Source: Candidatus Edwardsiibacteriota bacterium
GTDB lineage: Bacteria; Edwardsbacteria; AC1; EtOH8
Assembly: GCA_020053305.1 (NCBI GenBank)
Contig: JAGVNJ010000051.1
Location: forward strand, 1-64,000
Reading direction: 5' to 3'
DNA: 64,000 bases
The translations under genes and the position numbers were made by a program. The notes beneath the pieces were generated by a model. The model was not told where the DNA came from. It saw only the letters and a list, made by a program, of their open reading frames with translations, and searched no databases. Positions 4,911 to 24,400 of this stretch are shown in pieces (positions within the stretch are counted from its first letter, which is position 1; every line of letters begins with the position of its first letter).

Positions 4911-5263
4911 GGGGGCGACAGGTTTCGACGGATCAAGATAGATCGAAGTGGCATGTCGAGAAGGTCAGAGGGCTCGTTAAAATACTGGCAAGCCATCTAA
5001 ATGGCAACTATAATTACGCTTTAGCAGCTTAATTTTAAGCGCTATGTCGCTGTAGGTCTCCGCCCATCGGGCTTACAAACGACATCGTAAAGAAGGGCTG
5101 GTTCCGGGTGATGTCCCGGCATTCGGAACGAGATTCCAGGGGCTGCTCCGACCAGGACCGTGTTTATGCGGGCCTTTAGGAAAAGACAAAACATAAACTA
5201 AACATGTAGAGGCTTCGGTTGTTCTTTTTTCGGACGTGGGTTCGATTCCCACCGCCTCCACCA
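4911..5263 (+). ncRNA. ssrA: transfer-messenger RNA (tmRNA)
   Basis: Rescues stalled ribosomes and tags the nascent chain for proteolysis. The 5' end GGGGGCGACAGGTTTCGAC and the 3' end GGTTCGATTCCC...CGCCTCCACCA form the tRNA-Ala-like acceptor arm: GGGGGCG pairs with CGCCTCC with one G-U, and CCA is encoded. The tag frame reads GGC (5003-5005) AAC TAT AAT TAC GCT TTA GCA GCT TAA (5030-5032), giving GNYNYALAA after the charged alanine. The YALAA end is the usual degradation signal. The molecule is the one-piece form, about 353 bases. The antisense frame VEAVGIEPTSEKRTTEAST is the familiar spurious product of tmRNA 3' ends and supports the identification. Confidence 0.97.
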
Positions 5264-5768: not shown

Positions 5769-6299
5769 CTACTGTATCATCTGCTTGGCAAAAGTACTGA
5801 TGATGGGTTTCAGGTCCACGTCTCCTACCGGGTATTCGAAGGTTTTCTGCAGGCACGGTTTCAGCCTTTGGTGGGCCTCGCCGAATCCCTGCGACGACTC
5901 CCGGGCCTCCCACCGCCACTTGTCGGCCAGGTCCACCTTGCGGTCGTATTCCTTGGCCCCGTCGGCCTGCTCCTCGCAGTCCAGGAACTCGGTGCCGAAG
6001 ACAAAGCCCGCCTTCTTGGCCTTGTTCAGCAGGTCGATGAAATCGGTGTTGAACCGCCTCAGTTTCTTCGAAGAGGGCGGGTACACCAGAATGGCCTGCC
6101 TGCGCAGCGTCTCGATGTTGGCCGAGAATTTGTCGAAATCGCCGGGCAGATAGTTGTTGAAGTCATTGGCCAGCTCGGCATACTGCACCACCAGAGGCCG
6201 CATGGTGCGGAGGTACTCCTGGTCGCGGGGGTCGGGCCCGCATCCGGCGGATAAAAGCATCACACCGACACCTGCCGCAGCGATGAGAAAGTGCCGCAT
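5769..6299 (-). CDS. putative lipoprotein, unknown function
   Basis: 176 residues with a clear lipoprotein signal: MRHFLIAAAGVGVMLLSAGC. The lipobox LSAGC places the lipidated Cys at residue 20. The mature part is helical and charged, without recognised motifs. EYLRTMRPLVVQYAELANDFNNY is heptad-like, and a second region around KLRRFNTDFIDLLNKAKKAG follows. It ends KPIISTFAKQMIQ. The ribosome binding site AGGAGG lies seven bases before the ATG. It is 236 bp downstream of ftsE on the same strand, in the position where ftsX might be expected, but it has no membrane segments apart from the signal and is not FtsX. Confidence 0.75.
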   Translation of the reverse strand: MRHFLIAAAGVGVMLLSAGCGPDPRDQEYLRTMRPLVVQYAELANDFNNYLPGDFDKFSANIETLRRQAILVYPPSSKKLRRFNTDFIDLLNKAKKAGFVFGTEFLDCEEQADGAKEYDRKVDLADKWRWEARESSQGFGEAHQRLKPCLQKTFEYPVGDVDLKPIISTFAKQMIQ

Positions 6300-6535
6300 T
6301 TTTACCTCCTGGTTAAATAATAAAATAACATCTATTTCCCTCTCCTAATGCTTTAGGGGAGGGTAGGGTGGGGTTCGTTCCCTGTCCGATTTTCGATTCA
6401 CCACCGAGCACACAGAGACGATTTGGTTAACAGTTATTTATTGGTTAATCCATAAAGATCAGCGGGTATCAGCGTCCCGTCCGCCCCCGTCCTAAATCAC
6501 ACAAATCTAACCACACTTTCCCCCCGATACCCCTG

Positions 6536-7264
6536 TTACCTGTTCCCCGTAATCTGATCCCTGTTATCTGATCCCTCCTCCCCTCTCCGGTGGGTGATCC
6601 TGGCCGGAAGGTCCTTCTCGATCTTGCCGTTGTCCAGCATCAGCACCCGGTAGGGCATCTTCTTCACCAGCTCCTGCTCGTGGGTGGCCATCAGCACCGC
6701 CGTCCCCCTGGCATTGATGTCCTTCAGTATCTGGATTATCTCCAGGGTCCCCTGGGGATCCACGTTCCCGGTGGGCTCGTCGGCCAGCAGGATGAAGGGG
6801 TCGTTGACCAGGGCCCGGGCGATGGCCACCTTCTGCTGTTCCCCGCCCGACATCTGGTGCGGCAGGGAATGCCGCTTGTGCGACAGCCCCACCTGGTTGA
6901 GGGCCGCCATGGATTTCTTGTGGACCATCCCGTGGGGGGTCCCGGTCACCTCCAGGGCAAAGGCCACGTTCTCGTAGACCGTCCGCTCCGGCAGCAGCTT
7001 GAAATCCTGGAAGATCACCCCCAGCTTCCGCCTCAGCTGGGGTATCTGCCGGCGTTTGATGCAGTCCGAGCCGAACCCGGCCACCTTGACCACCCCCCGG
7101 TCGGGGAAATCCTCCATCATCAACAGGCGCAGGATGGTGCTCTTGCCTGAGCCCGAAGGCCCGATCAGGAAGACGAACTCGCCTTTGTCGATGGTGAAGT
7201 TGATCTCGGCCAGCGCCTGCCAGCTGTTCTGGAAGGTCTTGGATACATGCAGCAGTTCTATCAT
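6536..7264 (-). CDS. ftsE: cell-division ABC transporter ATP-binding protein FtsE
   Basis: ATPase that, with the membrane protein FtsX, activates septal peptidoglycan hydrolases. 242 residues: Walker A GPSGSGKST (about 35-43), Q-loop VIFQDFKLLPERTVYENVAF, signature MSGGEQQKVAIARAL, Walker B FILLADEPTGNVDP and the H-loop ATHEQELV. The DFKLLPERTVYENVA and LADEPTGN wording is that of FtsE rather than of LolD or MacB. The last 14 residues or so (EEGSDNRDQITGNR) are encoded by an imperfect 'CTGATCCCTGTTATCTGATCCC' spacer repeat, so the 3' end looks rebuilt. No ftsX follows in the window. It lies 69 bp downstream of pdxA. Confidence 0.88.
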   Translation of the reverse strand: MIELLHVSKTFQNSWQALAEINFTIDKGEFVFLIGPSGSGKSTILRLLMMEDFPDRGVVKVAGFGSDCIKRRQIPQLRRKLGVIFQDFKLLPERTVYENVAFALEVTGTPHGMVHKKSMAALNQVGLSHKRHSLPHQMSGGEQQKVAIARALVNDPFILLADEPTGNVDPQGTLEIIQILKDINARGTAVLMATHEQELVKKMPYRVLMLDNGKIEKDLPARITHRRGEEGSDNRDQITGNR

Positions 7265-7333
7265 ACTCGCTTAAATATTTTAGGCTTTCGATTTCTCATT
7301 ATACCATAAATTGGCCGTTGGGGCGGTCGCTTT

Positions 7334-8278
7334 TCACTTGCCGGACTTTCCCGACAGCCTGGCCGCCAGCAGCACCGCCCGGACCATCGGCTCCGGGTCG
7401 GCCTTATTCTTCCAGGCGATATCCGTGGCCGTCCCGTGATCCGGCGAGGTCCGGATGAACGGCAGGCCCAGGGTAACGTTGGTGGCCCCGCCCAAAACCT
7501 TCAGGGGCAGCAGTCCCTGGTCGTGATACATGGCCAGCAGGGCGTCGGTCCTTCCCTCTTGGCATGATCTGAATCCGGCCTCGGCCGATACCGGCCCGAC
7601 GGCATTGATGCCTGCTTTCACCGCCCGGGCCACCGCCGGGGAGATGATGGCCATATCCTCCCGGCCCAGCAGACCCTGCTCTCCGGCATGGGGGTTCAGG
7701 CCCAGCACCACGATCCGCGGCTGGCTGATGCCCCATAATTTTTTCAGGGCGGCATCAGTCAGTGATAATTTATCCAGTATCACCTGCCGGGTGATCAGAC
7801 CGGGGACCTTGGCCAGCGGCTGGTGGATGGTGGCCAGGGTCACCTTGAGTTTTTGGGCGGCGAACATCATGGCGCAGGGGCCGGAGCCGCACAGCTCGGC
7901 CAGTAGTTCGGTATGGGCGGTCTGCCGGTAGCCGGCCAAAGCCAGGGCTTTTTTGGAGATGGGAGCGGTGGCCATCCCGGATACCGCGTTGTCCAGGGCC
8001 ATCACCGCCGCGGCGATGATGGATTCGGCCGCGATCCGTCCGGTCTGGGCGCTCTCCCGGCCCGGCCCGATGTTGAACTTGGGGCAGTAGGTGTCGTGCA
8101 TCAGGACATCATTCAGCTTCAGCTTGAAGGCCCCGGCAAATTCCTCCCACAGGTCCCGCGGCCCCACCAGCACCGGGCAACAGGCCCGTCTGACCCGGCT
8201 GTCCAGGGCCGCCTTCAGGGCCACCTCCGGCCCGATCCCGGCCGGGTCGCCCATGGTTATGGCTATCCTTGGTTTCAT
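7334..8278 (-). CDS. pdxA: 4-hydroxythreonine-4-phosphate dehydrogenase
   Basis: Catalyses the NAD-dependent oxidation of 4-phosphohydroxythreonine in the DXP-dependent route to pyridoxal phosphate. 314 residues, usual length. Family signatures are ITMGDPAGIGPEVALKA at the N-terminus, APISKKALALAGYRQTAHTE (with a metal-binding His), GLNPHAGEQGLLGRED, the Lys/Asp region DALLAMYHDQGLLPLKVLG and GLPFIRTSPDHGTATDIAW. The metal ligands are expected among these His and Asp residues. It is followed on the same strand by ftsE. Upstream on the same strand is the fmdB-like gene, separated by 327 bp. Confidence 0.95.
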   Translation of the reverse strand: MKPRIAITMGDPAGIGPEVALKAALDSRVRRACCPVLVGPRDLWEEFAGAFKLKLNDVLMHDTYCPKFNIGPGRESAQTGRIAAESIIAAAVMALDNAVSGMATAPISKKALALAGYRQTAHTELLAELCGSGPCAMMFAAQKLKVTLATIHQPLAKVPGLITRQVILDKLSLTDAALKKLWGISQPRIVVLGLNPHAGEQGLLGREDMAIISPAVARAVKAGINAVGPVSAEAGFRSCQEGRTDALLAMYHDQGLLPLKVLGGATNVTLGLPFIRTSPDHGTATDIAWKNKADPEPMVRAVLLAARLSGKSGK

Positions 8279-8605
8279 ACTTCGTTATATTTTTCTTCTC
8301 ACACTAAGCGTTGCACTGAGCTGGCCGAAGTGACCCAACGTTTCTCATTCGCGTGTCATTCCCGGCTTGATCGGGAATCCATACCCTATGTAAATAATCT
8401 CCATCCTTGATGCCCCATATAACCTTTCCGCCATTTCAAACACCGCTCGATAAAGTATTGGGCCTCTCAAATCTTTTCCACAATGATCAAATATCGTCCG
8501 GCATCCCGCCCAATATCTCAAACGCTTCCAATATTTCAAACACCGCCCAGCACACTATCAGGCTCCTCAAACAATCAAACGTCGCTGATCCCTCCGCTGG
8601 GATCC
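8279..8605. other. 327-bp spacer, no gene
   Basis: Contains a hairpin repeat 'ATTCCCGGCTTGATCGGGAAT' (about 8354-8374) and several copies of 'CAATATNTCAAAC' (8505-8560). A 'CTGAGCTGGCCGAAGTG' word (about 8316) is related to the 'TTCGACAGGCTCAGG' family found inside genes further on. No coding or RNA signal. Confidence 0.55.
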
Positions 8606-8953
8606 TCAAACATTCTCTTCATCTTTGCTTTTATGGACCTCCTCATCCATGGTTTGGTCCACCATCTCATCGAAACCATCCCCGGCCTCGTCTCCCAGTT
8701 CTTTTCCCATCTTCTTGGCCCATTTGGCAACGGAAGCAGGGTCGTTCTCGTCCAGCCCGGCAAAGGACGAGGGGTCGGCCAGCTTTTCCATCCGCCTCTC
8801 CTCGGACTGCGGGGTCCTGAAGCGGGACATGACCCGCTCCAGCTTTTCGCTCCCGCAATTGGGACACTGCGGTATACCGTAGGTCTTGGGATTGAGAATC
8901 AGCAGGCTGACCCTTTTATGGCAGCCCTGGCAGATGTATTCGTAGATCGGCAT
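8606..8953 (-). CDS. FmdB-type zinc-ribbon regulatory-like protein, copy 1 (complete)
   Basis: 115 residues from MPIYEYICQGC. This start is chosen over an in-frame TTG ten codons upstream because it matches the family and copy 2. The zinc ribbon CQGC ... CPNC (about residues 8-11 and 30-33) is followed by GSEKLERVMSRF. An acidic helical tail ends in DEEVHKSKDEENV. The family (FmdB/CxxC_CxxC_SSSS) is small and its function is poorly known. Nearly the same sequence recurs at 13862-14197 on the same strand, about 88% identical in DNA over about 260 bp. This copy keeps the full C-terminus but lacks the intact upstream TPR gene. Confidence 0.85.
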   Translation of the reverse strand: MPIYEYICQGCHKRVSLLILNPKTYGIPQCPNCGSEKLERVMSRFRTPQSEERRMEKLADPSSFAGLDENDPASVAKWAKKMGKELGDEAGDGFDEMVDQTMDEEVHKSKDEENV

Positions 8954-9030
8954 CTTTACAAACCGTCTTTCATCTTTTTCCAATCCTCATGGTGCGGTTA
9001 TTGTCGGTACTATTGAAAACAATTCTTTGC
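8954..9030 (-). pseudogene. remnant of the 3' end of the TPR gene
   Basis: Reading toward the fmdB copy, the last codons give EDWKKMKDGL-stop, matching QEWKKMKDSL-stop at the end of the intact TPR gene (14199-15680). Homology continues for about 75 bp ('GTCTTTCATCTT.TTCCA.TCCT...ATGGTGCGG' on the + strand) and then stops. This shows that the duplicated block is the TPR-fmdB junction, not fmdB alone. Confidence 0.75.
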
Positions 9031-9147
9031 CATAGTATGTGGGGTATCATAAAAAAGAACATCTCGGATTTGTCAAGAGAATGTCCGTATTTTTAAATAT
9101 TAAGAAAATAAGCATTTTAAAGAAAATTTTCCAAACAGGCTGCTTTT

Positions 9148-10371
9148 TTACTTTACCCAATCCGTAAAAAAGTATTTGAATTTATAAAAGAAACGCTCCA
9201 GCAATCGCAGTTCCTCAGTTATGATATCTGCTTTCCCCTGCATTCCTTGTTTGAAAACAATTTTTTTACTATAACTTGATTTTAACCCGTTTTTAAAACC
9301 AACATCTATGGCGTATTTATTTTCCCGGGATACCAAAGAAATATTTTCAACCAGTCCTTCCACCGAGCCGTATTCGGCATAAGGATAGCTGTCGAATTTG
9401 ATTTTTACCTTTTGAGAAACCTTAACTTTCCCGGAACTTGCCTGCGGCAGATATATCTTCCCAATAATATCATTACAATCAGGCACAATGGCCAACACTT
9501 CTTCTCCGGCGTTTACAAACTGATTGTCGCTCCAGAATTTAAAAAAAGAAACGTAGCCGTCAACCGGCGTTTTGAGGATGTACTGCTCTTCCCATATGGA
9601 CAACTGATTGATAAACTCAAGCGCGATCTTCTGGTATTCCACCAAGGTTATTTTATTAGTGATAATTTCTGTTTTGGCCTGTTCCAGGGTATACCGCTTT
9701 TGCAGGTAAGCGCTTTCGGACTTATTCCGATCCTCTTCGGAGATCAGCTGCTGCTTGAACAGGGTCTTGTCATTCTGGTGCTTCTTTTCTGAAATAAGGA
9801 GATCCCGGGCTAAAATATTTTTTTGCTGGACCAGCTTGCGGTTCAATTCTTTGTAATAAATTATTTGCGCCAGAACCGTTTTTATTTTATCGGCCTGGTA
9901 GTTGGCCTGGTTAAAATATTTGCCGGTAAAATAATTCTGGAGAAATCCGGTATAGTCGACCTGTTGCCGGCCGTGGTTCTTGTCGTTGACCTGTACGGAT
10001 GGCTCGCTGTCGGGCAGGGCGATAATATTTCTAAAAACCTCGATTTGCTTTTTGAACTCAAATATGTCGGGCATGCTATCGGGATTGGCAATGGTCGCCA
10101 GGTAGGTGTTTTTGGTTACATATTGATTTTCGCCGACAAATAATTTTAAAGTCCCGCTACTCTTGGCAATAACGCCGATGGGTGGATTTTTTGTGGTTAA
10201 AACTATAGTTGCAGTTATGGAATCAGGGTATTTTATAATCCAACTGATTGAAATTAAAATTAATATGGTTAAAAATATTACGGTTATTCCCCAGCGTATA
10301 ATCCAATGTGGAATATAACTGAGGATATCCTGCACCTCTTCGCTTCTTAACTCAAAGCGCGGTTCCGCCAT
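9148..10371 (-). CDS. HlyD-family membrane-fusion (adaptor) protein of a peptide exporter
   Basis: 407 residues. A short cytoplasmic N-terminus (EVQDILSYIPHWIIRWG) leads into one membrane segment (about 30-50, ITVIFLTILILISISWII). A biotinyl/lipoyl-like half motif (IGVIAKSSGTLKLFVGENQYVTKNTYLATI) follows, then a long coiled coil (about 150-270). The second half motif is YILKTPVDGYVSFFKFWSDNQFVNAGEEVLAIVP, and a beta-barrel region has YPYAEYGSVEGLVENIS. This is the architecture of adaptors that partner C39-peptidase ABC exporters in Bacteroidota-like bacteria. Its ATG overlaps the exporter stop (TAATG), so the two are translationally coupled. It is AT-rich compared with flanking genes. Confidence 0.88.
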   Translation of the reverse strand: MAEPRFELRSEEVQDILSYIPHWIIRWGITVIFLTILILISISWIIKYPDSITATIVLTTKNPPIGVIAKSSGTLKLFVGENQYVTKNTYLATIANPDSMPDIFEFKKQIEVFRNIIALPDSEPSVQVNDKNHGRQQVDYTGFLQNYFTGKYFNQANYQADKIKTVLAQIIYYKELNRKLVQQKNILARDLLISEKKHQNDKTLFKQQLISEEDRNKSESAYLQKRYTLEQAKTEIITNKITLVEYQKIALEFINQLSIWEEQYILKTPVDGYVSFFKFWSDNQFVNAGEEVLAIVPDCNDIIGKIYLPQASSGKVKVSQKVKIKFDSYPYAEYGSVEGLVENISLVSRENKYAIDVGFKNGLKSSYSKKIVFKQGMQGKADIITEELRLLERFFYKFKYFFTDWVK

Positions 10372-12560
10372 TACAATCCAAGCTCCAGTTGGTTTTTTAT
10401 TAAGTTATAATAGGATCCCCGGTTCTTGACGAGCTGGAGATGTGTGCCCTGTTCCAATATATGACCTTGATCCAAAACAACAATCTGGTCCGCTTTTTGT
10501 ACGGTACTCAGGCGATGCGCTATTATCACCACAGTCTTCCCTTTAAAAAATTCCTCAAGATGTTTTATGATCACGCTCTCGTTATTGGCATCCAAAGAAC
10601 TTGTGGCTTCGTCAAAAAGCAAGTAATCGGGGTCTTTATATACTGCCCGGGCAATCAGCAACCGCTGTTTTTGTCCCTGGGAAAGCCCGTGGCCGTCCTG
10701 TCCGACCTTGGTGGTATATGAAAGGGGAAGGGTCTCGATAAAATCCTGGATATTTGCCACCTTGACGGCATTAAGAAGTTTTTCGCGGTGGATGCTTTCA
10801 TCGCTCATCACGATATTTTTGGCGATGGTATCGGAAAATAAATATCCATCCTGCATAACGACGCCGCACTTCTGCCTCCACAGGCTGGTATTAAAACCCG
10901 ACAGGTTGATATCCCCCAGGCGTATTTCGCCCTCGGTGGGTTCGTAAAACTTAAGCAGCAGTTTCATCAGGGTGGTTTTTCCGCTTCCGCTGGGGCCGAC
11001 GATGGCGGTGACCTTCCCCTGGGGAATGCTTAAGTTCAGATCCTTCAGAACAAATTCGGACTGCGGGCCCTCGTATTGAAAACCCAGATTATTGACCGAC
11101 AAACTTCGGTCCGAAGGCATTATGGTAATCTTATCAATATCCGGGTCTTCCTCTTCTTTGTGAAGGTGAATCTCCTCCAATCGTTCCAGGCTCAACTTGG
11201 CATCCTGGGCCGTCTGGAAAAAGCCCATCAACTGGTCTATGGGGCTGTTCATCTGCCCCAGAATATAGGAGATGGCCAGCATCATGCCCAGGGTCATATG
11301 CCCCAAGATCACCTCCCGGGCCACTAAAAAGGTGATCAAAATATTTTTTAATTCGTTAAGAAACAAAGAGCCGGCCTGCTGGTACTGATTGATGGCCAAA
11401 CCCTTCATGTTGATTTTGAACAGCCCCGCCTGAATCCGTTCCCATTCCCAGCGCTTGGTTTTTTCGCTGTTATTGAGCTTGATCTCCGGCATGCCCTGGA
11501 TGAGTTGTATCAGGTTGCTCTGATTCTGGGATAGCTGGCGGAACCGTTTGTAATCCAGCTCGCTTCTTTTTTTCATAAATATCAGCACCCAGCCGATCAC
11601 CAAAACGCTGCCCACCACAAAAACTAACAATATTTTCAGGCTGTATACCGCCATAACAATGCTGAAGATGATCAAATTGACCATCGAGAAAAGCAGCCCC
11701 AATGTCGAGGAAGTGAGGAAATTTTCCACCCTTCGATGGTCTCCGATGCGCTGAAGAATGTCTCCGATGAACTTGGTATCAAAGAACGACAGCGGCAGTT
11801 TCATCAGTTTGATCAAAAAATCGGAGATGATCGAGATATTGACCCGGGTGCCGATATGCAGCAGGATCCATCCCCTTATCAGATCGACCGTGGTCCGGCT
11901 CAGGAACAGCATCAGCTGGGCGGCAAGGATGGTATATATAAATCCGATATTTTGGTTGCTTATTCCGAAATCCACCAAAGACTGGGTCAAAAAGGGAAAG
12001 ATTAATTGCAGCAGGCTGCCGGCCACCATTCCGATCAAAAGCTGGGTGATAAATTTGCGGTAGGGAAACAGGTAGGAAAAAAGAAAACGAAATCCCCGTT
12101 TGCTCTTTGGGGCTTCGTCATCTTTCTGATAAAAATGCGGGGTGGGCTCCAGCAAAAGAAGAATACCTTCGTTCTCTCCGGTGCCGATCCAGCCCTTTAA
12201 AAATTCATCCTTTCCATAGGTCAGCAGTCCGTGAGCCGGGTCGGCCACATATATCTTGTCTTTTTTGATCTTGTATATCACGATGAAATGGTTCTGCATC
12301 CAGTGGGCGATGGCCGGCAGGGTGGCTTCTTTTTTCAACTGCTCATAGGTGGCCTTGGCTCCAATGGTTCTAAAACCGATGGACTCGGCGGCATCGCTTA
12401 TTCCCAATAGGGATACCCCCTCCCGGGTGATGAAGGATTTGTTGCGCAAAAACTCCAGGGAGTATATCTTGCCGTAGTGCTTGGCGATCATCCTTAAACA
12501 GGACGGACCGCAATCCATGGCATCATACTGGTGATAAAAGGGAAAAGACAGTGGTTTCAT
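10371..12560 (-). CDS. peptidase-containing ABC exporter (C39 domain), double-glycine peptide processing and export
   Basis: 729 residues that both cleave leader peptides and export the cores. The C39 cysteine-protease domain is at 1-135: catalytic Cys17 in MDCGPSCLRMIA, His91 in QNHFIVIYK and Asp107 in VADPAHG. The six-helix membrane domain spans about 155-440. The ATPase domain (about 480-715) has Walker A GPSGSGKTT, signature LSQGQKQRLLIARA, Walker B YLLFDEATSSLD and H-loop IAHRLST. All catalytic residues are present, so it should be active. Its obvious substrates are the three GG-leader peptides encoded divergently 285 bp away. It is coupled to the HlyD-like gene downstream. No modifying enzyme is encoded in the island. 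Confidence 0.93.
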   Translation of the reverse strand: MKPLSFPFYHQYDAMDCGPSCLRMIAKHYGKIYSLEFLRNKSFITREGVSLLGISDAAESIGFRTIGAKATYEQLKKEATLPAIAHWMQNHFIVIYKIKKDKIYVADPAHGLLTYGKDEFLKGWIGTGENEGILLLLEPTPHFYQKDDEAPKSKRGFRFLFSYLFPYRKFITQLLIGMVAGSLLQLIFPFLTQSLVDFGISNQNIGFIYTILAAQLMLFLSRTTVDLIRGWILLHIGTRVNISIISDFLIKLMKLPLSFFDTKFIGDILQRIGDHRRVENFLTSSTLGLLFSMVNLIIFSIVMAVYSLKILLVFVVGSVLVIGWVLIFMKKRSELDYKRFRQLSQNQSNLIQLIQGMPEIKLNNSEKTKRWEWERIQAGLFKINMKGLAINQYQQAGSLFLNELKNILITFLVAREVILGHMTLGMMLAISYILGQMNSPIDQLMGFFQTAQDAKLSLERLEEIHLHKEEEDPDIDKITIMPSDRSLSVNNLGFQYEGPQSEFVLKDLNLSIPQGKVTAIVGPSGSGKTTLMKLLLKFYEPTEGEIRLGDINLSGFNTSLWRQKCGVVMQDGYLFSDTIAKNIVMSDESIHREKLLNAVKVANIQDFIETLPLSYTTKVGQDGHGLSQGQKQRLLIARAVYKDPDYLLFDEATSSLDANNESVIIKHLEEFFKGKTVVIIAHRLSTVQKADQIVVLDQGHILEQGTHLQLVKNRGSYYNLIKNQLELGL

Positions 12561-12702
12561 CTTATTAAATATGTAATAACAGTGCTATCCTTTTGTGGTT
12601 ATAGACATGGTGTAGTTTATCAAATGCCGGGATATTTTACAAGGGAAAAGTCCCTAAGCTCGGGAAATCTGAACAGCATATAGCTGTTTACTTAAACAAG
12701 TT

Positions 12703-12731
12703 ATTATAAAATAACCACTTAGAAATACCAA
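12703..12731 (-). promoter_or_regulatory. candidate promoter of the exporter-adaptor operon
   Basis: On the minus strand TTGGTA (12731-12726), a 17-base spacer and a perfect TATAAT (12708-12703), leaving a leader of about 140 bases. The inverted repeat ACAGC-ATATA-GCTGT (12673-12687) lies just downstream and could be an operator. Confidence 0.45.
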
Positions 12732-12765
12732 TGGCGAAATTATTGGTTGCTATCAAAAATAGTTA

Positions 12766-12795
12766 TTGACAATACAATCTTTAATTTAGTATAAT
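12766..12795 (+). promoter_or_regulatory. consensus sigma70 promoter of the peptide genes
   Basis: TTGACA (12766-12771), 18-base spacer, TATAAT (12790-12795). Both boxes are perfect. The predicted start near 12802 gives a leader of about 43 bases to the first peptide ATG. The surrounding DNA is very AT-rich. This suggests strong expression of the peptides relative to the exporter. Confidence 0.8.
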
Positions 12796-12844
12796 TTCCC
12801 AATAGTTTAAAACAATATATTTTTAAAAGAAAGGAGAAAAACAC

Positions 12845-12961
12845 ATGAAAGAACTGAACAGAGACGAGCTGTTAAAGGTATTGGGCGGCGAGGATATAGT
12901 CGAGCCGGATGAAACCGAAATAATATACGGCCGTGCGACTTCATATGGCAGCTACTATTAG
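12845..12961 (+). CDS. double-glycine leader peptide precursor 1
   Basis: 38 codons with ribosome binding site AAGGAG ten bases upstream. The leader MKELNRDELLKVLGG fits the L-x3-EL-x2-(I/V)-x-GG pattern cut by C39 peptidases. Cleavage after Gly15 would release a 23-residue core that starts EDIVEPDET and continues EIIYGRATSYGSYY. The core has no Cys, net charge about -5, and a Tyr/Ser-rich end. It is the first of three tandem copies with a 152-bp period and is read divergently from the exporter that should process it. A bacteriocin, a signalling peptide, or a precursor modified by an enzyme encoded elsewhere are all possible. I do not recognise the core. Confidence 0.85.
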   Translation: MKELNRDELLKVLGGEDIVEPDETEIIYGRATSYGSYY

Positions 12962-12996
12962 TTTTTAACCAAACCCATTTAACCAAAGGAGAAACA

Positions 12997-13113
12997 ATGA
13001 AAGAACTAAACAGGGACGAGCTGTTAAAGGTAAAGGGCGGCGAGGATATAGTCGAGCCGGATGAAACCGATTGGATACGGGGCCGCGGTACTTCATATAG
13101 TGACTTCTATTAG
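12997..13113 (+). CDS. double-glycine leader peptide precursor 2
   Basis: 38 codons, ribosome binding site AAAGGAGA upstream. Leader MKELNRDELLKVKGG: the residue before GG is Lys instead of the Leu of copy 1, unusual because a hydrophobic or small residue is common there. The core begins with the same EDIVEPDET, then diverges to DWIRGRGTSYSDFY. The constant leader and acidic half with a variable C-terminal half suggest duplication followed by selection on the tail. The 35-bp gap between genes is identical to the next one, apart from the base before the ATG. Confidence 0.85.
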   Translation: MKELNRDELLKVKGGEDIVEPDETDWIRGRGTSYSDFY

Positions 13114-13148
13114 TTTTTAACCAAACCCATTTAACCAAAGGAGAAACC

Positions 13149-13265
13149 ATGAAAGAACTAAACAGGGACGAGCTGTTAAAGGTAAAGGGCGGCGAGGATA
13201 TAGTCGAGCCGGATGAAACTGATATAGCCTACGGGCGGGCCACTTCCTATTCTAGTAATTACTAG
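13149..13265 (+). CDS. double-glycine leader peptide precursor 3
   Basis: 38 codons. Leader MKELNRDELLKVKGG, core EDIVEPDET then DIAYGRATSYSSNY and a TAG stop. Unlike copies 1 and 2, the 'TTTTTAACCAAACCC' sequence that normally follows the stop is missing. Foreign DNA (an FnIII-protein fragment) begins directly after TAG and happens to stay open in the same frame. I read the TAG as a true stop because all copies end in TAG. Confidence 0.85.
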   Translation: MKELNRDELLKVKGGEDIVEPDETDIAYGRATSYSSNY

Positions 13266-13746
13266 GGCGGCAAGGCATCCAACCACAATAATGTTTACCT
13301 TACATTCTCCATCGGCTCGTTAAGCAACGGCCTTCATCCCAGCACCGCTTCCGAACTGACCCGCCGGATACTGGCTTTCCAGGGCTTTAACGTGGAGCCC
13401 GAGCCGATAGTGGACCTGGTGGATTCGGTATATACCAGCACGATAGAAGGATCGGTGGAACTTTCCTGGACGGCCGTCAGTGATGACGCCCTGACTGAGG
13501 CCGCTTCTAAGTACTGGTTAAAATATTCCAAATATAACGTCTCTGCGTCAGATCTGGGCAAGATGAGTTCTGAAAGTGATTTTATAGATACCGGTTTTAC
13601 CTATTACCAGACCTGGACGCCGTTAACCCCTAAATCATTAGAAAAAAAATTCGTGGCTGGTTTGCCGCCGGGAGATACTTTAATTTTTAGCCTCAAAGCC
13701 GGTGATGAATCTTCGCCCGTCCGTTGGGGAATCTTGGGTAACGAGC
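13266..13746 (+). pseudogene. fragment of a secreted FnIII-domain protein, truncated at both ends
   Basis: Open in one frame from the peptide-3 stop, with no proper start (only an internal GTG at 13392). It encodes YLTFSIGSLSNG...ELTRRILAFQGF, which resembles the end of a secreted peptidase-associated domain. An FnIII domain follows (VELSWTAVSDDALTEAASKYWLKYS ... WTPLTPKSLEKKFVAGLPPGDTLIFSLKAGDESS ... GNEPG). At about 13747 the sequence becomes the tail of a peptide gene in another frame, and the open frame merely runs on to 13856 through a terminator. GC content is higher than in the peptide array. I infer a piece of a large secreted protein gene captured by recombination. Confidence 0.6.
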
Positions 13747-13776
13747 CGGGCTACTGCATATTCGAGCTACTATTAG
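13747..13776 (+). pseudogene. 3' remnant of a fourth peptide precursor gene
   Basis: In the frame ending at TAG 13774-13776 the codons give RATAYSSYY-stop, to be compared with RATSYGSYY-stop (copy 1) and RATSYSSNY-stop (copy 3). The following ACTTTAACCCA resembles TTTTTAACCAAA after copies 1 and 2. The match supports an original array of at least four units, the fourth overwritten by the FnIII fragment. Confidence 0.65.
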
Positions 13777-13794
13777 ACTTTAACCCAGATATTA

Positions 13795-13822
13795 GGGGCA
13801 ACCATTGGTTGCCCCTTTTTTT
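13795..13822 (+). terminator. intrinsic terminator of the peptide array
   Basis: Nine-pair stem GGGGCAACC-ATT-GGTTGCCCC followed by seven T. It lies 18 bases after the fourth-unit stop, so it is probably the native end of the peptide transcript. Confidence 0.85.
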
Positions 13823-13861
13823 GCTGTTTGTAACGTTGTTCGGCATGTGCAAATAAAATAA

Positions 13862-14197
13862 TTAGACATTAGTATTGTTAGGTGATAAAATCAATCGTTG
13901 TGAGGTTATGCCATATTGGAAGCGTGGCCGAGTGCCACCAAGCTCCCGGCCCATCTTCTTGGCCCATTTGGCCACCGAGGAGGGGTCGTTCTCGTCCAGC
14001 CCGGTAAAGGAAGACGGATCGGCCAGCCTTTCCATTCGCCTCTCCTCGGACTGCGGGGTTCTGAAGCGGGACATGACCCGCTCCAGCTTTTCGCTCCCGC
14101 AATTGGGACATTGCGGTGTCCCGTAGCTCTTGGGATTGAGGATCAGCAGACTAACCTTCTTTTTGCAGCCCTGGCAGATGTGTTCATAGATTGGCAT
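13862..14197 (-). CDS. FmdB-type zinc-ribbon protein, copy 2 (C-terminus replaced)
   Basis: 111 residues starting MPIYEHICQGCKKKVSLLIL. The zinc ribbon CQGC/CPNC and GSEKLERVMSRFRTPQSEERRMERLADPSSF match copy 1 (8606-8953). After KKMGRELG the homology ends abruptly, and the last 25 residues or so (TRPRFQYGITSQRLILSPNNTNV) come from unrelated island-edge DNA. It sits one base after the TPR gene stop, so it occupies the native operon position (acpS-nnrDE-TSUP-TPR-fmdB). The acidic C-terminal tail has been lost, so it may be only partly functional. Confidence 0.75.
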   Translation of the reverse strand: MPIYEHICQGCKKKVSLLILNPKSYGTPQCPNCGSEKLERVMSRFRTPQSEERRMERLADPSSFTGLDENDPSSVAKWAKKMGRELGGTRPRFQYGITSQRLILSPNNTNV

Positions 14198-14198
14198 T

Positions 14199-15680
14199 TT
14201 ATAAACTGTCTTTCATCTTCTTCCATTCCTGGGTGATGGTGCGGATGTCGATGGTGCTGTTTAAGAACTTATTTCTTTCCTCGGGGTCATGTATTTCCTG
14301 GGCTCTTTTTACCAGTTCCCGATAAGCCGTTTCCAGGCATTCCATAGACTGTTTCTCTCGTCCAACCGCTTTTAATATTTCATAGCGCTGAAAATAATAT
14401 TTTTCCAAAGCCACCTCAAAAACGTTTTGCTTCTTTAACAATTCCAAAGATTCGTCGGAATAATCCATGGCTGTTTTGGTATCACCCAATTTCAAATAAA
14501 CATTTGCCATATAAGAAAGGCCTAAAATTATAGCCGAATTAGATCCTATCTCCCGAGCCAAGGTTATCCCTTCCCGCCCGTACTCAATTGCTTCCCGACA
14601 GCGGCCAAGCAAGGTGCACAATTCTGAATTTTTTACCAGCGAATGACACAAGTAATCTTTGGCATTGATTTTACGGCTGAGGTCTATGGTCTCAAGGCTG
14701 TATTCCAGGGCCTTTTTATAGTCCTGTTTCATAGCCCAAAGGTCGGCCATATTATTCAGTTTTGATGCCTGGCCGTTAAGATTTCCTGTGGAGATGTCTA
14801 TCTGCAGTGCTTTTTCCAAATAGCTCAGGGCTTTATCATGATTTCCTAATATTCCTTCCATGACCGCCATGTTATTGAGCTTGGAAGCCTCGCCGGTTAT
14901 ATTTCCAATGGTCCGGTCTATGCCGACTCCTCTTTGGAGATAGGCCAGGGCCTCTTTATATTCGCTTCTTCTCAGTAATATCACGCCTATATTGTTTAAC
15001 ATAGTGCTTTGCTTTATCAAATCTCCCATTTTTTGAGATAGCGCGTAAGCTTGTTGATAAAGATCAAATGCTTCCTCGATCCGGTCCGTCCTCAGATAAA
15101 CACCGGCCACGTTGGACTTAACAGAGATCTGTCGCCTGACATCATTTTCCTTCTCGTATGTGTTCTGGGCCTGGCTATAATATTCCAGAGCCTGGGCATA
15201 TGAGCCTATCCTCCAACAAGTCAGCCCCAGGTCGCTGTTGACGTCGGCGGCCTTGATGTCATGGCCCAATTCGTTGAAGATCTCCAGCGCTTTCATTCGG
15301 TATTCCGTGGCGCCGGCATAGTCCGACAGATGATAGCTGGCCTCGCCCATCTGGTCGTACATCCGGGCCGTCCCCTCCCGGTCTCCCGATCCGACAGCCT
15401 GTTCCAGCCCTTTGCGAGAAAACTCCAGGGCTTCCTTATAATTGGCCCGATATACGGCCAGGGCCGAAAGATAGTAGCTGGCTTGGGAACCGTAGGATCT
15501 ATCAGCTTCCGCTAAAAGGCTGATGGACCGGGCCAGTTTTTCCGAACCCTGGCGGTCGGCGGTCACATCGTACACCTCCCACTGCCGCTGCCAAATGACG
15601 AACGGAATTTCATCCTCCAGGCTCGTCTTTCCCGGGAAATTCTTCGCGTTGCTTATTATCCAGCCTATTATCTTGCTCAT
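14199..15680 (-). CDS. tetratricopeptide-repeat protein
   Basis: 493 residues, almost all TPR units from about residue 45 to 450. Repeated patterns include SYHLSDYAGATEYRMKALEIFNELG, CWRIGSYAQALEYYSQAQNTYEKEN, LLRRSEYKEALAYLQRGVGIDRTIG and GNHDKALSYLEKALQIDISTG. Such repeats mediate protein-protein contacts, and this layout resembles the sensory TPR part of tetratricopeptide regulators, but no kinase, cyclase or HTH domain follows. No signal peptide, so cytoplasmic. The ATG overlaps the TSUP stop (ATGA), showing coupling within the acpS operon. A fragment of its 3' end is duplicated at 8954-9030. Confidence 0.85.
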   Translation of the reverse strand: MSKIIGWIISNAKNFPGKTSLEDEIPFVIWQRQWEVYDVTADRQGSEKLARSISLLAEADRSYGSQASYYLSALAVYRANYKEALEFSRKGLEQAVGSGDREGTARMYDQMGEASYHLSDYAGATEYRMKALEIFNELGHDIKAADVNSDLGLTCWRIGSYAQALEYYSQAQNTYEKENDVRRQISVKSNVAGVYLRTDRIEEAFDLYQQAYALSQKMGDLIKQSTMLNNIGVILLRRSEYKEALAYLQRGVGIDRTIGNITGEASKLNNMAVMEGILGNHDKALSYLEKALQIDISTGNLNGQASKLNNMADLWAMKQDYKKALEYSLETIDLSRKINAKDYLCHSLVKNSELCTLLGRCREAIEYGREGITLAREIGSNSAIILGLSYMANVYLKLGDTKTAMDYSDESLELLKKQNVFEVALEKYYFQRYEILKAVGREKQSMECLETAYRELVKRAQEIHDPEERNKFLNSTIDIRTITQEWKKMKDSL

Positions 15681-16036
15681 TTAGCCAGCATCATCTTTAC
15701 CGCAATGGCCATCAGGAACACCCCGAACATCCTCTGCAACCAGACCCCTGAGATCTTCTCGGCCAGCACCGCGCCCAAAAGCCCGCCGAAGAAAAAGCAC
15801 ACCGCCATCACCGCCGCCGCCTTGATGTTGACATGCCCGGCCGAATAATATTTCCAGGCCGCCAGCAGTCCGATGGGCAGAAGCAAAGTGGCCAGCGAGG
15901 TGCCCTGGGCCTGGTGCTGGGAAAATTTAAACAATATCACCAGCGCCGGAACAATCACCACCGCCCCGCCGATGCCGAACAATCCGCTGATCACCCCGGC
16001 CAGGGCCCCCAGCATCCCGTATCCCAGCCAAACCAT
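15677..16036 (-). CDS. half-size TauE/SafE (TSUP) family membrane permease
   Basis: 119 residues, four predicted membrane segments (YGMLGALAGVISGLFGIGGAVVIVPALVILF, LATLLLPIGLLAAWKYY, AAAVMAVCFFFGGLLGAVLA, MFGVFLMAIAVKMML). The GLFGIGGAVVIVPAL motif is the TSUP signature. Full-length members have about 250 residues with two such halves, so this one would need to dimerise. Family members move sulfite, sulfonates or other organic anions; the substrate cannot be told here. It overlaps the TPR gene by four bases and abuts nnrDE. Confidence 0.85.
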   Translation of the reverse strand: MVWLGYGMLGALAGVISGLFGIGGAVVIVPALVILFKFSQHQAQGTSLATLLLPIGLLAAWKYYSAGHVNIKAAAVMAVCFFFGGLLGAVLAEKISGVWLQRMFGVFLMAIAVKMMLAK

Positions 16037-17599
16037 TTAGATATCCTCCATCAGTTTTTTATAAGCCTCAGGGAGAGCATCTAAGATATCTCCCGCCAGC
16101 ATGCAATATTCTGTCTTGCCTGCAGCCGCCAGGTCCCCGGCCAGCCCGTGCAGATAGACCCCCAGCACCGCCGCCCTCTCCGGAGCCAGCCCCTGGGCCA
16201 GCAGCCCGGCGATCAGCCCGGCCAGCACGTCACCCGACCCGGCGGTGGCCATACCGCTGTTGCCGGTGGGGTTGATCCAGGCCCTGCCGTCCGGCAGGGC
16301 GGTAACGGTGGGGGCCCCTTTCAGCACTATTACATGATTGAATTGCTTGGCCGCCTCCAGGGCATATTTGAGCGGCCCGGCCTTTATCTGTGATATCTCA
16401 ACCTTCATCAGCCGGGACAATTCGCCGTAATGGGGCGTCAGGATCAGGGGAGCTTGACAACTCAGCAGTTCCGGCCTGGTGGCCAGGGCATTGAGGCCGT
16501 CGGCATCCAGCACCGCCGGAAGGTTGATTGACCGGATGACCGACTGCACCAGCTCGGCGGTCTCGGGGTGGGCCGAAAGCCCGGGGCCGATGACCAACGC
16601 ATCGGCCTTGCCCGTCAATTTTTCGATGCGCTCCATAGCCTGCAGGGAAAGGGTCCGGTTCCTGGTCTCCGGCAGGGGCTTGGTGATGACCTCGGTCAGC
16701 TTGGCCTCCATGATATCGTTCAGGCTCTCGGGGATCCCCAGGTAGACCAGCCCGGCCCCGGATCGCATGGCCGACAACGATGTCAGGAAGGCGGCTCCGG
16801 TCAGGCCGGCCGACCCGGCCAGCGCCAGCACCGTTCCGCAGCTGCCCTTGTGGGCATCGGGCCTTCTGGCCGGCAGCCATTCCCTGGCCAGGGATTGCCC
16901 CGCCAGACGGATATTTATTTTCTGATCGGCAATAGCCCTTTCGGGAAATCCGATGTCGGTGATGACGACCTTTCCGGCCAGTGTTCTGCCGGGGTGAAAC
17001 AACAGTCCGGTCTTCAAAAGCCCCATGGTCACCGTGACATCGGCCCGGATGGCGCAGGATAACGCCTGCCCGGTCTCCCCGTCCACCCCGGAGGGGATGT
17101 CGGCCGACAGCACCGGCAAACCCGAGGCATTGATCAGGGCTATCGCCCCGCCGATACTTTTTTCAACCGGGCCCCTGAATCCCGTCCCGAAGATGGCATC
17201 GATTATCAGGTGCGACCCCGTCAGGTTTTTTTTCAAAGATGCCAGTTTCGCTCTTGATGTTATTTCGTGTATTTTTAAACCGGCCTTGTTCAGTTTTTTG
17301 GCGTTGGCCAGGGCGTCGCCCTTAACGTCCCTTACGTGCCCCAGCAAAAAGACCGAAGCCTGGAAGCCGTTTTCAGCCAGCATCCTGGCGGCTACAAAAC
17401 CGTCCCCCCCGTTATTACCCTTGCCGCATATCAGGCAGACGTTCCGCTGGTCGCCCGGCCCGCCGTCCCGCAGCATGGCCTCGGCCTGATCGGCCACTGC
17501 CCGCCCGGCGTTCTCCATCAGGGTCAGACCGGGAATTTTGTGCTTCCTTATGGCCCGAGCGTCTATCTCCCGCATCTGCTGGGGTGTGACTACGAACAT
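16037..17599 (-). CDS. nnr: bifunctional NAD(P)H-hydrate epimerase / ADP- or ATP-dependent dehydratase
   Basis: Repairs hydrated NADH/NADPH. 520 residues form the usual fusion. The N-terminal YjeF_N epimerase domain (about 1-215) has LMENAGRAVADQ, CGKGNNGGDGFVAARML and SADIPSGVDGETG. The C-terminal ribokinase-like dehydratase domain (about 225-515) has AHKGSCGTVLALAGSAGLTGAA, DALVIGPGLS, VLDADGLNAL, LTPHYGELSRL and the NSGMATAGSGDVLAGLIAG nucleotide and catalytic segment. It lies 18 bp downstream of acpS, a very common pairing, and directly upstream of the TSUP gene. Confidence 0.95.
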   Translation of the reverse strand: MFVVTPQQMREIDARAIRKHKIPGLTLMENAGRAVADQAEAMLRDGGPGDQRNVCLICGKGNNGGDGFVAARMLAENGFQASVFLLGHVRDVKGDALANAKKLNKAGLKIHEITSRAKLASLKKNLTGSHLIIDAIFGTGFRGPVEKSIGGAIALINASGLPVLSADIPSGVDGETGQALSCAIRADVTVTMGLLKTGLLFHPGRTLAGKVVITDIGFPERAIADQKINIRLAGQSLAREWLPARRPDAHKGSCGTVLALAGSAGLTGAAFLTSLSAMRSGAGLVYLGIPESLNDIMEAKLTEVITKPLPETRNRTLSLQAMERIEKLTGKADALVIGPGLSAHPETAELVQSVIRSINLPAVLDADGLNALATRPELLSCQAPLILTPHYGELSRLMKVEISQIKAGPLKYALEAAKQFNHVIVLKGAPTVTALPDGRAWINPTGNSGMATAGSGDVLAGLIAGLLAQGLAPERAAVLGVYLHGLAGDLAAAGKTEYCMLAGDILDALPEAYKKLMEDI

Positions 17600-21493: not shown

Positions 21494-24400
21494 TCACCTT
21501 ATCAAAATCAGCTTTTGGGTCAACGCGGCAGCTCCGGCCGTCAGCCGGTAGAAATAGATGCCCGAAGCCATATTGCCGCCCGTATTATCTCGGCCATCCC
21601 AATTCACCCGGTATGCGCCCGGGGGCTTTTCTCCGGAATCCAGCGTTCTGATATTCTGGCCAAGTATGTTGTATACCGACAAAGAAACCAAGGTCTTTTG
21701 GGGCACCTGGTAGGATATCACGGTATTGAAACGCATGGGATTGGGATAATTTTGGTTAAGCCTGACGATCCCCTGTGGCGGAAGGCGGTCATCCCCTCCC
21801 TCGCTGGCGCTCTTGGTCCAGGGCGTTATCTGGATATCGTCTAGATGCCAGCCTAGGGCGGTCACCGAATAATCGGAGGTGAACCTGAAGCGCAGCCGGC
21901 CCTTGGCTCCCTGGGGAACGTCAACTATATCGTAGGAGGCCTGGGACCAGTCGGAGGCGGTCCCGGTAAAGCTGGCCAGTTGGCTCCAGTTCAGCCCGCC
22001 GTCGGCGCTGTATTCCACCAGGCCGAAATCGTAGTTGTTTTCCATGGCGTATTTGTGCCAGAAGGAGACGGTATTGGCCGCCCCCAGCACGAACTCCGGG
22101 GTGGTCAGCGAGGCGTTCATGCCGTTCAGATAATTTTCACCATCCCCCACCCCGCAGCGCCAGCTTTTTGAAGGACTGTGATAGGTGTATTCGGTAATAT
22201 GCCACAGATCCTCGGCCTGATACTGGCTGGTGACGGAACTGTCCTCCACATCATCCAGAAACCCCGGGCTGGCTATGGCTATGGCAAAACTGTCGGTCTG
22301 GGTTATGGCCCCTCCCAGTGTTCTCATCTGCAATTTCATCCAGGCGTAATAGGGGGTCTGGGGCGGGCTGCCGAAGGAAACCAGATAGGGAATATCCGAC
22401 CATCGGGTCTGCTGGTCGGCGATGTCGCCAAAGCCCGCGCTGTCGCTTATCACAGTAACATAGGGGTCGCTGCTGCTGAGAACGGCTTTGACATCATCAG
22501 CCGTCTGGGCCCCGTAATTCTTAAGGCTGACGGCTATGCTGTCGGTCTCTCCGGGCTCGGCAAAGCCGTTGTTGTTGGCCGGGGCCGGGTCGGCCACCGA
22601 GTAGGAATTGAAGCGCAGTTTTGGCGCCTGGACCCTGATGGCGAAGATACTGGTCCAACCATCCTCGGTATCCCGGCATCTCAGAGTAAAGGGAATGATG
22701 GCCCCGTTGGTGCAGGCCGGTGAAACGCTGAACCGGTACCCGGCGGAATATAGGGCCGAATCGCCGGGGTAGATGATGCCGAAATTATGCAGGCTGTCGG
22801 TAATGGCAATCAGCGGGCTGGTGGTCCCTAAGGCGCCCTTGACCGTGCCGATGGAGATGGTGCTGCCGCAGTTTTTGACCCACAGCGGCAGGGCGATGGC
22901 CTCGCCGGGGTTGGCCGAGCCGTCTCCGTTGCCGGCGGCATCGTTCAGGCTGTGCCCGATGTACATCACAAAGGGCCCGCTAACAGCTATGCCCATGCCC
23001 CCGCTGTAGGGTCGGCAGTTGTGGGCCGTTACCGTCAGCCGGATGCTGTCCCCTGTGCCGGTGGTTTCGATATTCAGGGCGGCCCGGCCCAGGCTGTCGG
23101 TATAGCCGGCCGCCAGCACCTTGCCGGTGGATTTTAACACCAGTCCCACCAGGGCCCCGGCCACCGGGTCGCCGGCCGCCACATTGACCGCCACCGTAGT
23201 CGCCCCCAGGCTGACCTTGGCCGGGTGGGTTACGGTCAGGGTCAGGGGCTGCTGGGTGTAAAGGTCTATCGCCCCATTGCCCATTATATTATACATCTCA
23301 AAATATCTTTTGGTCATGGGGATATTCCCCCAGGTTCGGAAGTAATCCAGCTTGGCTTTGGTGGTCATGCCCCCGATCCAGGCATATCCGCTGTCTAAGA
23401 AAGCATCGTACAGCCGGCGCTGGAGGATGTCGTCCTCATCCCAATAGGAGGTTACGGATGATCCCCAAAAAGCCATGGCCCCTTTATCCGCCGCCCTTAT
23501 CCAGGTCTCCCCAAAGCACTCGGAATAGGTGAACTGCCCTGTCAGGCAGGCAAAACTGGTCACCAGCGGATATTTATCGGCGTTGGTAAGGGCATTTACA
23601 CCGGCCTGGTTGAAGCTGGGTCCGTCCCAATAAGTAACCGCGCCGTGGCCGGTATAGGTAGCCACGGTCCGCCCCTGATTAAGGGCATCGGCTACCGGGG
23701 TCCCGCCATAGCTTCCGTAGGCATACAGCGAGTCGCCTGCCATACCGTGGGCCCGGACTCTTGTCAAACAATAATTATTGGTGGCCTCGGCCAGGCCGTG
23801 ATAGCTGTAGTCATTCGAAGCCATAAAATATGCCTTACGCATCCAGCCCTGGTCGGACGACCATTGCCCCTGCTGGTAGCCCATATATTTGGCGATGTAA
23901 TTCTTAAGCTGGATCGTGTCGGCCACCGAGATCCGGCTGACATAAAGATCCGGCAGGTAATCAGTCCCGGCCATGGTGGAATAATAAAGGTCGGTGGCCG
24001 GATTATTTGCGGAGCTGGCTATGTAAGCCGGAATGACCTCCACATCCCCCACCAGCAGGACGAAATCCGGCGGGTTCTCCCCGTCGTACTGGTCCTTTAT
24101 GTATTGACGGATGCTGGCGGTGTCGGCCCCGCCGGGAACTTCCGAGGTCCTGGTGACGAATACCCGGTATCCTTTCCGGGTGTCCCATTCTATCAGGGGC
24201 GCCAATACATCGTAGTATTGATCGCCGGTAATTATCAATTGGTTTATGGGCAGGGCGGGAGCCGCCTTGGCAGAAACATCAAACTGGTCGTAGTTTATAA
24301 GGGCCGATGACACCGGCCTGTCGTATACCGCCGAGCGGTACTTTTGGATGATCTGGGATGTTTTGGCGGGATCGCCGCCGCTTAGCCTGATGTTGATCTT

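Follow-up and report, generated by a model that had tools for sequence, protein, structure and literature searches.

What do three very small genes beside a peptide exporter send out of the cell, and what would the products do there? The question is raised by contig JAGVNJ010000051.1 of Candidatus Edwardsiibacteriota bacterium (assembly GCA_020053305.1), of which positions 1 to 64,000 were analysed; this whole 64,000-nucleotide stretch is called the window below. It carries an array of three genes for peptides with a double-glycine (GG) leader, lying divergent from the genes for a C39 peptidase-containing ATP-binding cassette (ABC) exporter and its HlyD-type adaptor. To our knowledge, many GG-leader peptides are without known function and are usually presumed to be toxins or pheromones, and the Edwardsbacteria phylum is known only from metagenomes. 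The initial annotation of the locus suggested an unusual antimicrobial or a secreted signal. We compared the 2.59-Mb genome containing the window (G000), a member of the Candidatus Edwardsbacteria family, within a set of ten related genomes of that family, G000 included, whose names include Prado126, UBA2255 and CALMGM. The peptide tails almost certainly share ancestry with a single segment of a large secreted protein, and a second type of peptide copies the start of a mature lipoprotein.

Each of the three genes is an ATG open reading frame (ORF) of 38 codons on the forward strand with its own ribosome-binding site, and the spacing from start to start is exactly 152 nt. Peptide 1 (12845..12961) has the core EDIVEPDET-EIIYGRATSYGSYY, peptide 2 (12997..13113) the core EDIVEPDET-DWIRGRGTSYSDFY and peptide 3 (13149..13265) the core EDIVEPDET-DIAYGRATSYSSNY. 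The last 14 residues had been described as variable, and they do differ between the peptides, but what had been missed is that all of them are homologous to the same part of a large resident protein. When G000 was searched with peptide 2, the match following the three peptides themselves lay inside a 1,214-amino-acid ORF on contig G000:C68, at SDPAKDKWIRGRGTSYSTFYKGDKASTHKNVYLTFSIG (E 2.6e-4). The tails, comprising the C-terminal 13-14 core residues, align without gaps with the (W/I)xxGR(A/G)T(S/T)Y(S/G)xxY-K of this parent, and the stop codon falls at the invariant Lys. Across the large proteins of the family the segment follows the consensus K(W/I/L)xxGR(A/G)T(S/T)Y(S/G)xxYK, with R, Y and K invariant and, in genus g2, C for the G of GR. 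The parent block is of the W class in G000, G006, G009b and genus g2 and of the I class in G001, G002, G003 and G009a, with G008 close to I; peptide 2 has a W-class tail and peptides 1 and 3 have I-class tails.

Best parent matches were scored over 13 tail residues, with 20,000 shuffles per tail. Peptide 2 of G002 matches a G006 protein, from another genus, at 13/13, and peptide 2 of G000 matches the protein of its own genome at 12/13. Peptide 1 reaches 11/13 in both G000 and G002, peptide 3 of G000 reaches 10/13 and the G007 peptide 9/13. The observed values were reached by 0 of the 20,000 shuffled versions of each tail.

The link to the parent is most visible at peptide 3, where the parent gene continues in frame for 483 bases from the stop codon, some 160 codons uninterrupted by a further stop. 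The fragment (13221..13744, forward strand) starts as the peptide-3 tail itself, has 80% amino-acid identity to the large protein (E 9.7e-57) and contains one TAG, the peptide-3 stop, which is AAG in the parent gene. Between peptides 2 and 3, leader and linker differ at 1 of 72 nt and the tails at 23 of 42. These alignments support a peptide-3 locus formed when a leader-linker unit was joined to a piece of the parent gene. Compared with the parent genes of genera g1 and g4, the fragment shows 72-76% identity, and its donor lineage therefore lies outside the sampled ones. It is followed by a headless fourth tail remnant, RATAYSSYY and a stop (13747..13776, forward; weak parent match, 7/13), and by a strong intrinsic terminator (13794..13816, forward) common to G000 and G002. 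The G002 island is collinear with that of G000 and 89% identical, without the large-protein gene fragment. Homology is preferred to chance because of the search E value of 2.6e-4, the in-frame fragment and the shuffled tails taken together.

The resemblance extends to the allelic forms of the parent. The peptide-2 orthologues of G000 and G002 have four tail differences (I/S, R/Y, S/G and F/Y), each being the residue of the matching parent allele. In the same comparison, all 7 changes in leader and linker are synonymous and 0 non-synonymous, against 2 synonymous and 6 non-synonymous ones in the tail (hypergeometric 36/6435 = 0.006, from small numbers), and on this count the peptides are more than chance ORFs. 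For the 11-13/13 matches between tail and parent, the proportion of synonymous differences (pS) is 0.48-1.18 and that of non-synonymous differences (pN) 0.07-0.14, amino acids being kept and codons diverged. The parent match thus appears to be kept, not just inherited. The sequences do not support a recent conversion by any sampled parent gene as the origin of the matches, as the matching residues lie in diverged codons; unsampled donors are possible. The arrays of G000 and G002 each hold a W-class and an I-class peptide, and the W type is common to two genera.

A second type of peptide repeats the pattern with an unrelated parent. G000 has an unlinked GG peptide at C68:70425-70535, MQKLTNAELLKVLGG-DEGTIPPPTTD-GKKENPFEPIT, and the second-type peptides of G000, G004 and G007 end in GKK(E/D)NP(F/Y)EP, the start of a mature lipoprotein after the lipid-bearing Cys. 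GKKENPFEPIT matches 11/11 to the lipoprotein starts CGKKENPFEPIT in G001, G002 and G003, and the PFEPT and PYEPN variants were also matched. Other lipoprotein starts are CGKKENPFEPTT in G004, CGKKENPYEPNT in a 446-amino-acid frame (its length fits G005:C146) and CGKKDNPFEP in G000 and G006. We estimate from residue frequencies that an exact 11-residue match would occur by chance on the order of 1e-6 times per genome, which places it well outside chance, although the BLAST E value for its score is only about 0.3. Peptide and lipoprotein codons have 4-6 synonymous differences and 0 non-synonymous ones.

The large parent protein has an N-terminal signal peptide and a C-terminal tail like that of type IX secretion system (T9SS) or FlgD proteins (FlgD-Ig/Por-secretion-tail domain); no relatives of the parent domain were found in the PDB, and a Rossmann/GATase-like fold is no more than a tentative impression. 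It is found in 9/10 family genomes, and because these include four without the full exporter and leader peptides (G001, G003, G008 and G009), it is the older partner. The copied block and the 13 residues before it form a mosaic: the identity of G000 to G009b, of another genus, is 83% and 73% and that to its three congeners 36-53%, while the flanks of the block, unlike the block, group by genus. A hypervariable hotspot in the parent was rejected, as the block ranks 80th of 244 windows of the parent protein in variability and is no more than a local drop in conservation within a region otherwise conserved. Genus g2 has second copies of the large-protein gene near a contig end (L083:9502-11241 on G007:C194 and L090:6204-8593 on G004:C77). 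In the G004 copy this segment seemed to be deleted, a reading that was discarded because the gap consists of scaffold Ns. G007 has a single peptide of this type, a W-class one with the genus-specific CR, and about 120 bp separate the second parent copy from this peptide gene downstream of it. Two more proteins encoded in the window, at 21497-22111 and 28408-28977, share their sorting-type C-terminal tail with the large protein.

The machinery beside the peptides is of a known kind. The exporter (10371..12560, reverse strand, 729 amino acids) has profile matches to Peptidase_C39 (1.4e-34), ABC_membrane and ABC_tran, can be aligned from end to end with PCAT1 (4ry2) and ComA, and has the candidate triad C17/H91/D107 together with Q11. 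By these matches it is an ordinary C39 family member, with C39 fused to ABC transmembrane and ATPase domains. The adaptor gene (9148..10371, reverse strand, 407 amino acids) was identified by its ORF and profile matches. The leader is MKELNRDELLKV(L/K)GG, and its L4, E8, L9, G14 and G15, found in all three peptides, fit the ComA-type rule L(-12)xxxE(-8)L(-7)...GG (PMC6363468). Cleavage at GG and export by C39 exporters are established for ComA, PCAT1 and LahT (PMC6363468). The array promoter (12766..12795, forward) reads TTGACA-18-TATAAT at -35/-10, a 12/12 consensus match conserved in G002.

Much of the initial annotation is borne out by the ORFs and profile matches: three 38-codon genes with a common GG leader divergent from exporter and adaptor, a candidate Cys/His/Asp triad, Cys-free and strongly acidic cores (all three 23 amino acids, charge -5, isoelectric point about 4), and no modification or immunity gene adjoining the array. 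No modifying enzyme for ribosomally synthesized and post-translationally modified peptides was seen at 6000-17000, where only exporter, adaptor and unrelated genes occur, distant enzymes lying outside this search. Beside the array, no sensor kinase or regulator was found within the window. A sigma-factor-like pair occurs near the G002 array and not beside that of the window. No Rfam element scored above threshold between peptides and exporter. The three peptides had no NCBIfam match above cut-off, and peptide 1, the sole core scanned, none in Pfam.

An absence of the leader/exporter association in relatives had been named beforehand as a possible refutation, and at genome level the association holds: leader peptides occur in exactly the 4/4 genomes with a full-length exporter (G000, G002, G004 and G007) and in 0/6 others, these ten genomes being related and not independent. 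A peptide-export island is thus the reading of the locus that these comparisons support. In G004 and G007 the leader peptides were found scattered on other contigs, none being seen beside the exporter, and a single exporter therefore probably serves several peptide loci. Other GG peptides were observed along the way. G004:C47 (L084:850-4312) has a cluster of at least 8 with differing cores and small lipoprotein genes interspersed, and a peptide of G002:C5 (L153:7593-7766) has a core built of a duplicated motif (TGHFKGVDGLDSETGHFMGVDGLST), of which another genus conserves a single copy. A Bacteroidia relative (L026:9181-9548) has two adjacent GG peptides by a related exporter with the identical acidic Pro-rich tail DKDKNPDIPPDPIKK; mimicry was considered for these and rejected, no parent being found in that genome.

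The island is flanked by copies of an FmdB-type zinc-ribbon gene, one complete (8606..8983, reverse strand; ORF and profile matches) and one 3'-truncated (13862..14197, reverse strand), which form a direct repeat (8706-8987 and 13950-14230, 89%). In G004 and G007, too, an fmdB homologue is found no more than a few kb from the exporter. G002 carries its island beside two tRNA-Ser genes, and the right edge in the window ends in a tRNA-Ser gene truncated to its first 17 nt at the 5' end (13918..13934, forward). G002 has the whole gene at the corresponding position, which suggests a move of the island from a site like that of G002. A transfer-messenger RNA gene with the tag GNYNYALAA lies further off, at 4911-5263.

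Taken as a whole, these observations are best explained if the island exports molecular mimics of surface or secreted proteins that compete for the binding partners of their parents. The C39 domain would cut after GG, and the ABC exporter and HlyD adaptor would send out the 23-residue cores. New cores would arise by the joining of the leader-linker unit to a piece of a parent gene, with peptide 3 as the preserved and supported case. An exported core may then bind the usual target of the parent segment, whether a partner, a processing enzyme or the parent itself, and may thereby compete with parents of the matching allele in the producer, its kin or its neighbours. Binding the target of the parent segment would be the simplest function because the peptides preserve parent residues in the allelic forms of the parent. 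We give this chain as a whole a probability of roughly 45%. A wider proposal is more tentative and somewhat unlikely: arrays of GG peptides may track several allelic forms of a bacterium's own secreted or lipid-anchored proteins, acting as allele-specific competitors or as tokens of kin recognition, with leader-fragment fusions supplying new specificities. That cores can be followed back to particular parts of resident secreted proteins, in two cases unrelated to each other and with close agreement to individual alleles, yields a concrete and testable hypothesis on binding, and peptide 3 makes visible how part of a larger gene can become a new exported peptide. Should further genomes show the same allele matching, peptide-based kin interaction would be indicated for Edwardsbacteria.

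Several observations weigh against mimicry of this kind. Matches to the genome's own protein are lower elsewhere than in G000, at 10/13 for the G002 allele and 6/13 in G007. G000 has no close orthologue of the best-fitting lipoprotein, of about 600 amino acids, but only a 36%-identical one with CGKKDNPFEP. For the cores GHFxGVDGL, MPRRQPVWE, GAHSFHEI and MRNPWGSED no convincing parent was found in the ten genomes, in a search sensitive to near-exact matches of about 9 residues and not to weaker ones; because several core types are without a parent, mimicry may not hold generally. The codon statistics come from short tails with about 9 synonymous sites each and from allele pairs chosen post hoc, and most of the compared genomes are fragmented, metagenome-type assemblies.

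Among the alternatives, a secreted signal is the one that best survives, though we consider it unlikely. The peptides would be pheromones sensed by a receptor, and their resemblance to the parent would mean that the signal was once cut from the parent, in the way that lipoprotein signal peptides yield the enterococcal pheromones. A GG leader with a C39 exporter is the usual route for such signals, the leaders match the EntF and VP1 pheromone models, albeit weakly, and the peptides end directly before the invariant Lys of the parent, as a processed fragment might. There is also an enterococcal precedent, in which pheromones derive from lipoproteins and plasmid-encoded short inhibitors compete with them (PMC7117660). 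The array is, however, without a linked sensor kinase or regulator and each array has several differing tails, and the second peptide type corresponds to the start of the mature lipoprotein, not to a signal peptide. The signal half of the initial proposal is possible, though no receptor was found.

It is improbable that the peptides are soluble decoys, shed allelic copies of an exposed polymorphic site that would titrate a phage or rival toxin. The mosaic parent block, by which G000 resembles G009b of another genus and not its congeners, the two allelic classes within arrays and the patchy occurrence of the island would all suit such a role. Against it, neither a phage nor a toxin is known for these bacteria, the start of a lipoprotein, close to the membrane, would hardly serve for docking, and the variability of the copied block is unremarkable.

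The antimicrobial half of the initial proposal found no support in short, acidic, Cys-free cores without an immunity gene, and a class II-like microcin or bacteriocin is very improbable. Class II bacteriocin and bacteroidetocin cores are cationic or near-neutral, about 30-60 amino acids long and often have Cys pairs; those of the island have 23 residues, a charge of -5, no Cys and no family match, and are homologous to a resident secreted protein. The class of export machinery is the same as that of bacteriocins, and bacteroidetocins also have leaders of 15-16 amino acids and no immunity gene (PMC6671954), but the island is without a bacteroidetocin-like oxidoreductase or accessory gene. That the peptides are non-functional by-products, leaders fused to gene scraps, duplicated and drifting, is least credible, since the parent fragment of about 480 nt still behind peptide 3 and the broken fourth tail are outweighed by the amino-acid constancy of the peptide-2 leader and linker between species despite 7 synonymous changes, the conserved strong promoter, ribosome-binding sites and terminator, the W type in two genera, and a parent-allele match kept across heavily diverged synonymous sites.

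Mimicry of resident proteins can finally be set beside known systems. With the PCAT1, ComA and LahT systems, whose peptides include ComC, EntF and class II bacteriocins, the island shares the leader rule, the architecture of C39, transmembrane and ATPase domains and the placing of peptide genes by the exporter; it differs in its cores, which match no NCBIfam family and reproduce parts of resident secreted proteins. Bacteroidetocins (PMC6671954) likewise have a 15-residue GG leader, a C39 exporter and no immunity gene, but they are basic peptides of 42 amino acids with four Cys, accompanied by a thiol oxidoreductase and a transmembrane protein, whereas the island has acidic, Cys-free cores of 23 residues and an HlyD adaptor. 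In the EbfG1-4/PteB system of Synechococcus elongatus there are also small GG-motif proteins of a non-Gram-positive bacterium, a C39 exporter that is needed and a non-antimicrobial role in biofilm; the likeness to the island peptides is one of description, and the abstract of that study describes no resemblance to resident proteins (PMC4997328). The nearest precedent in logic is provided by the enterococcal inhibitors iCF10 and iAD1 (PMC7117660), short exported peptides akin to a piece of a chromosomally encoded, exported lipoprotein with which they compete. These resemble a signal peptide and are not GG/C39 products, unlike the mature lipoprotein start and the internal segment of a large protein copied here. 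Cores traceable to resident secreted-protein segments were not found in the open-access literature searched, an absence of little weight. Export by GG leader and C39 peptidase is already known, and it is the copying of resident secreted-protein segments in their cores that sets these peptides apart.

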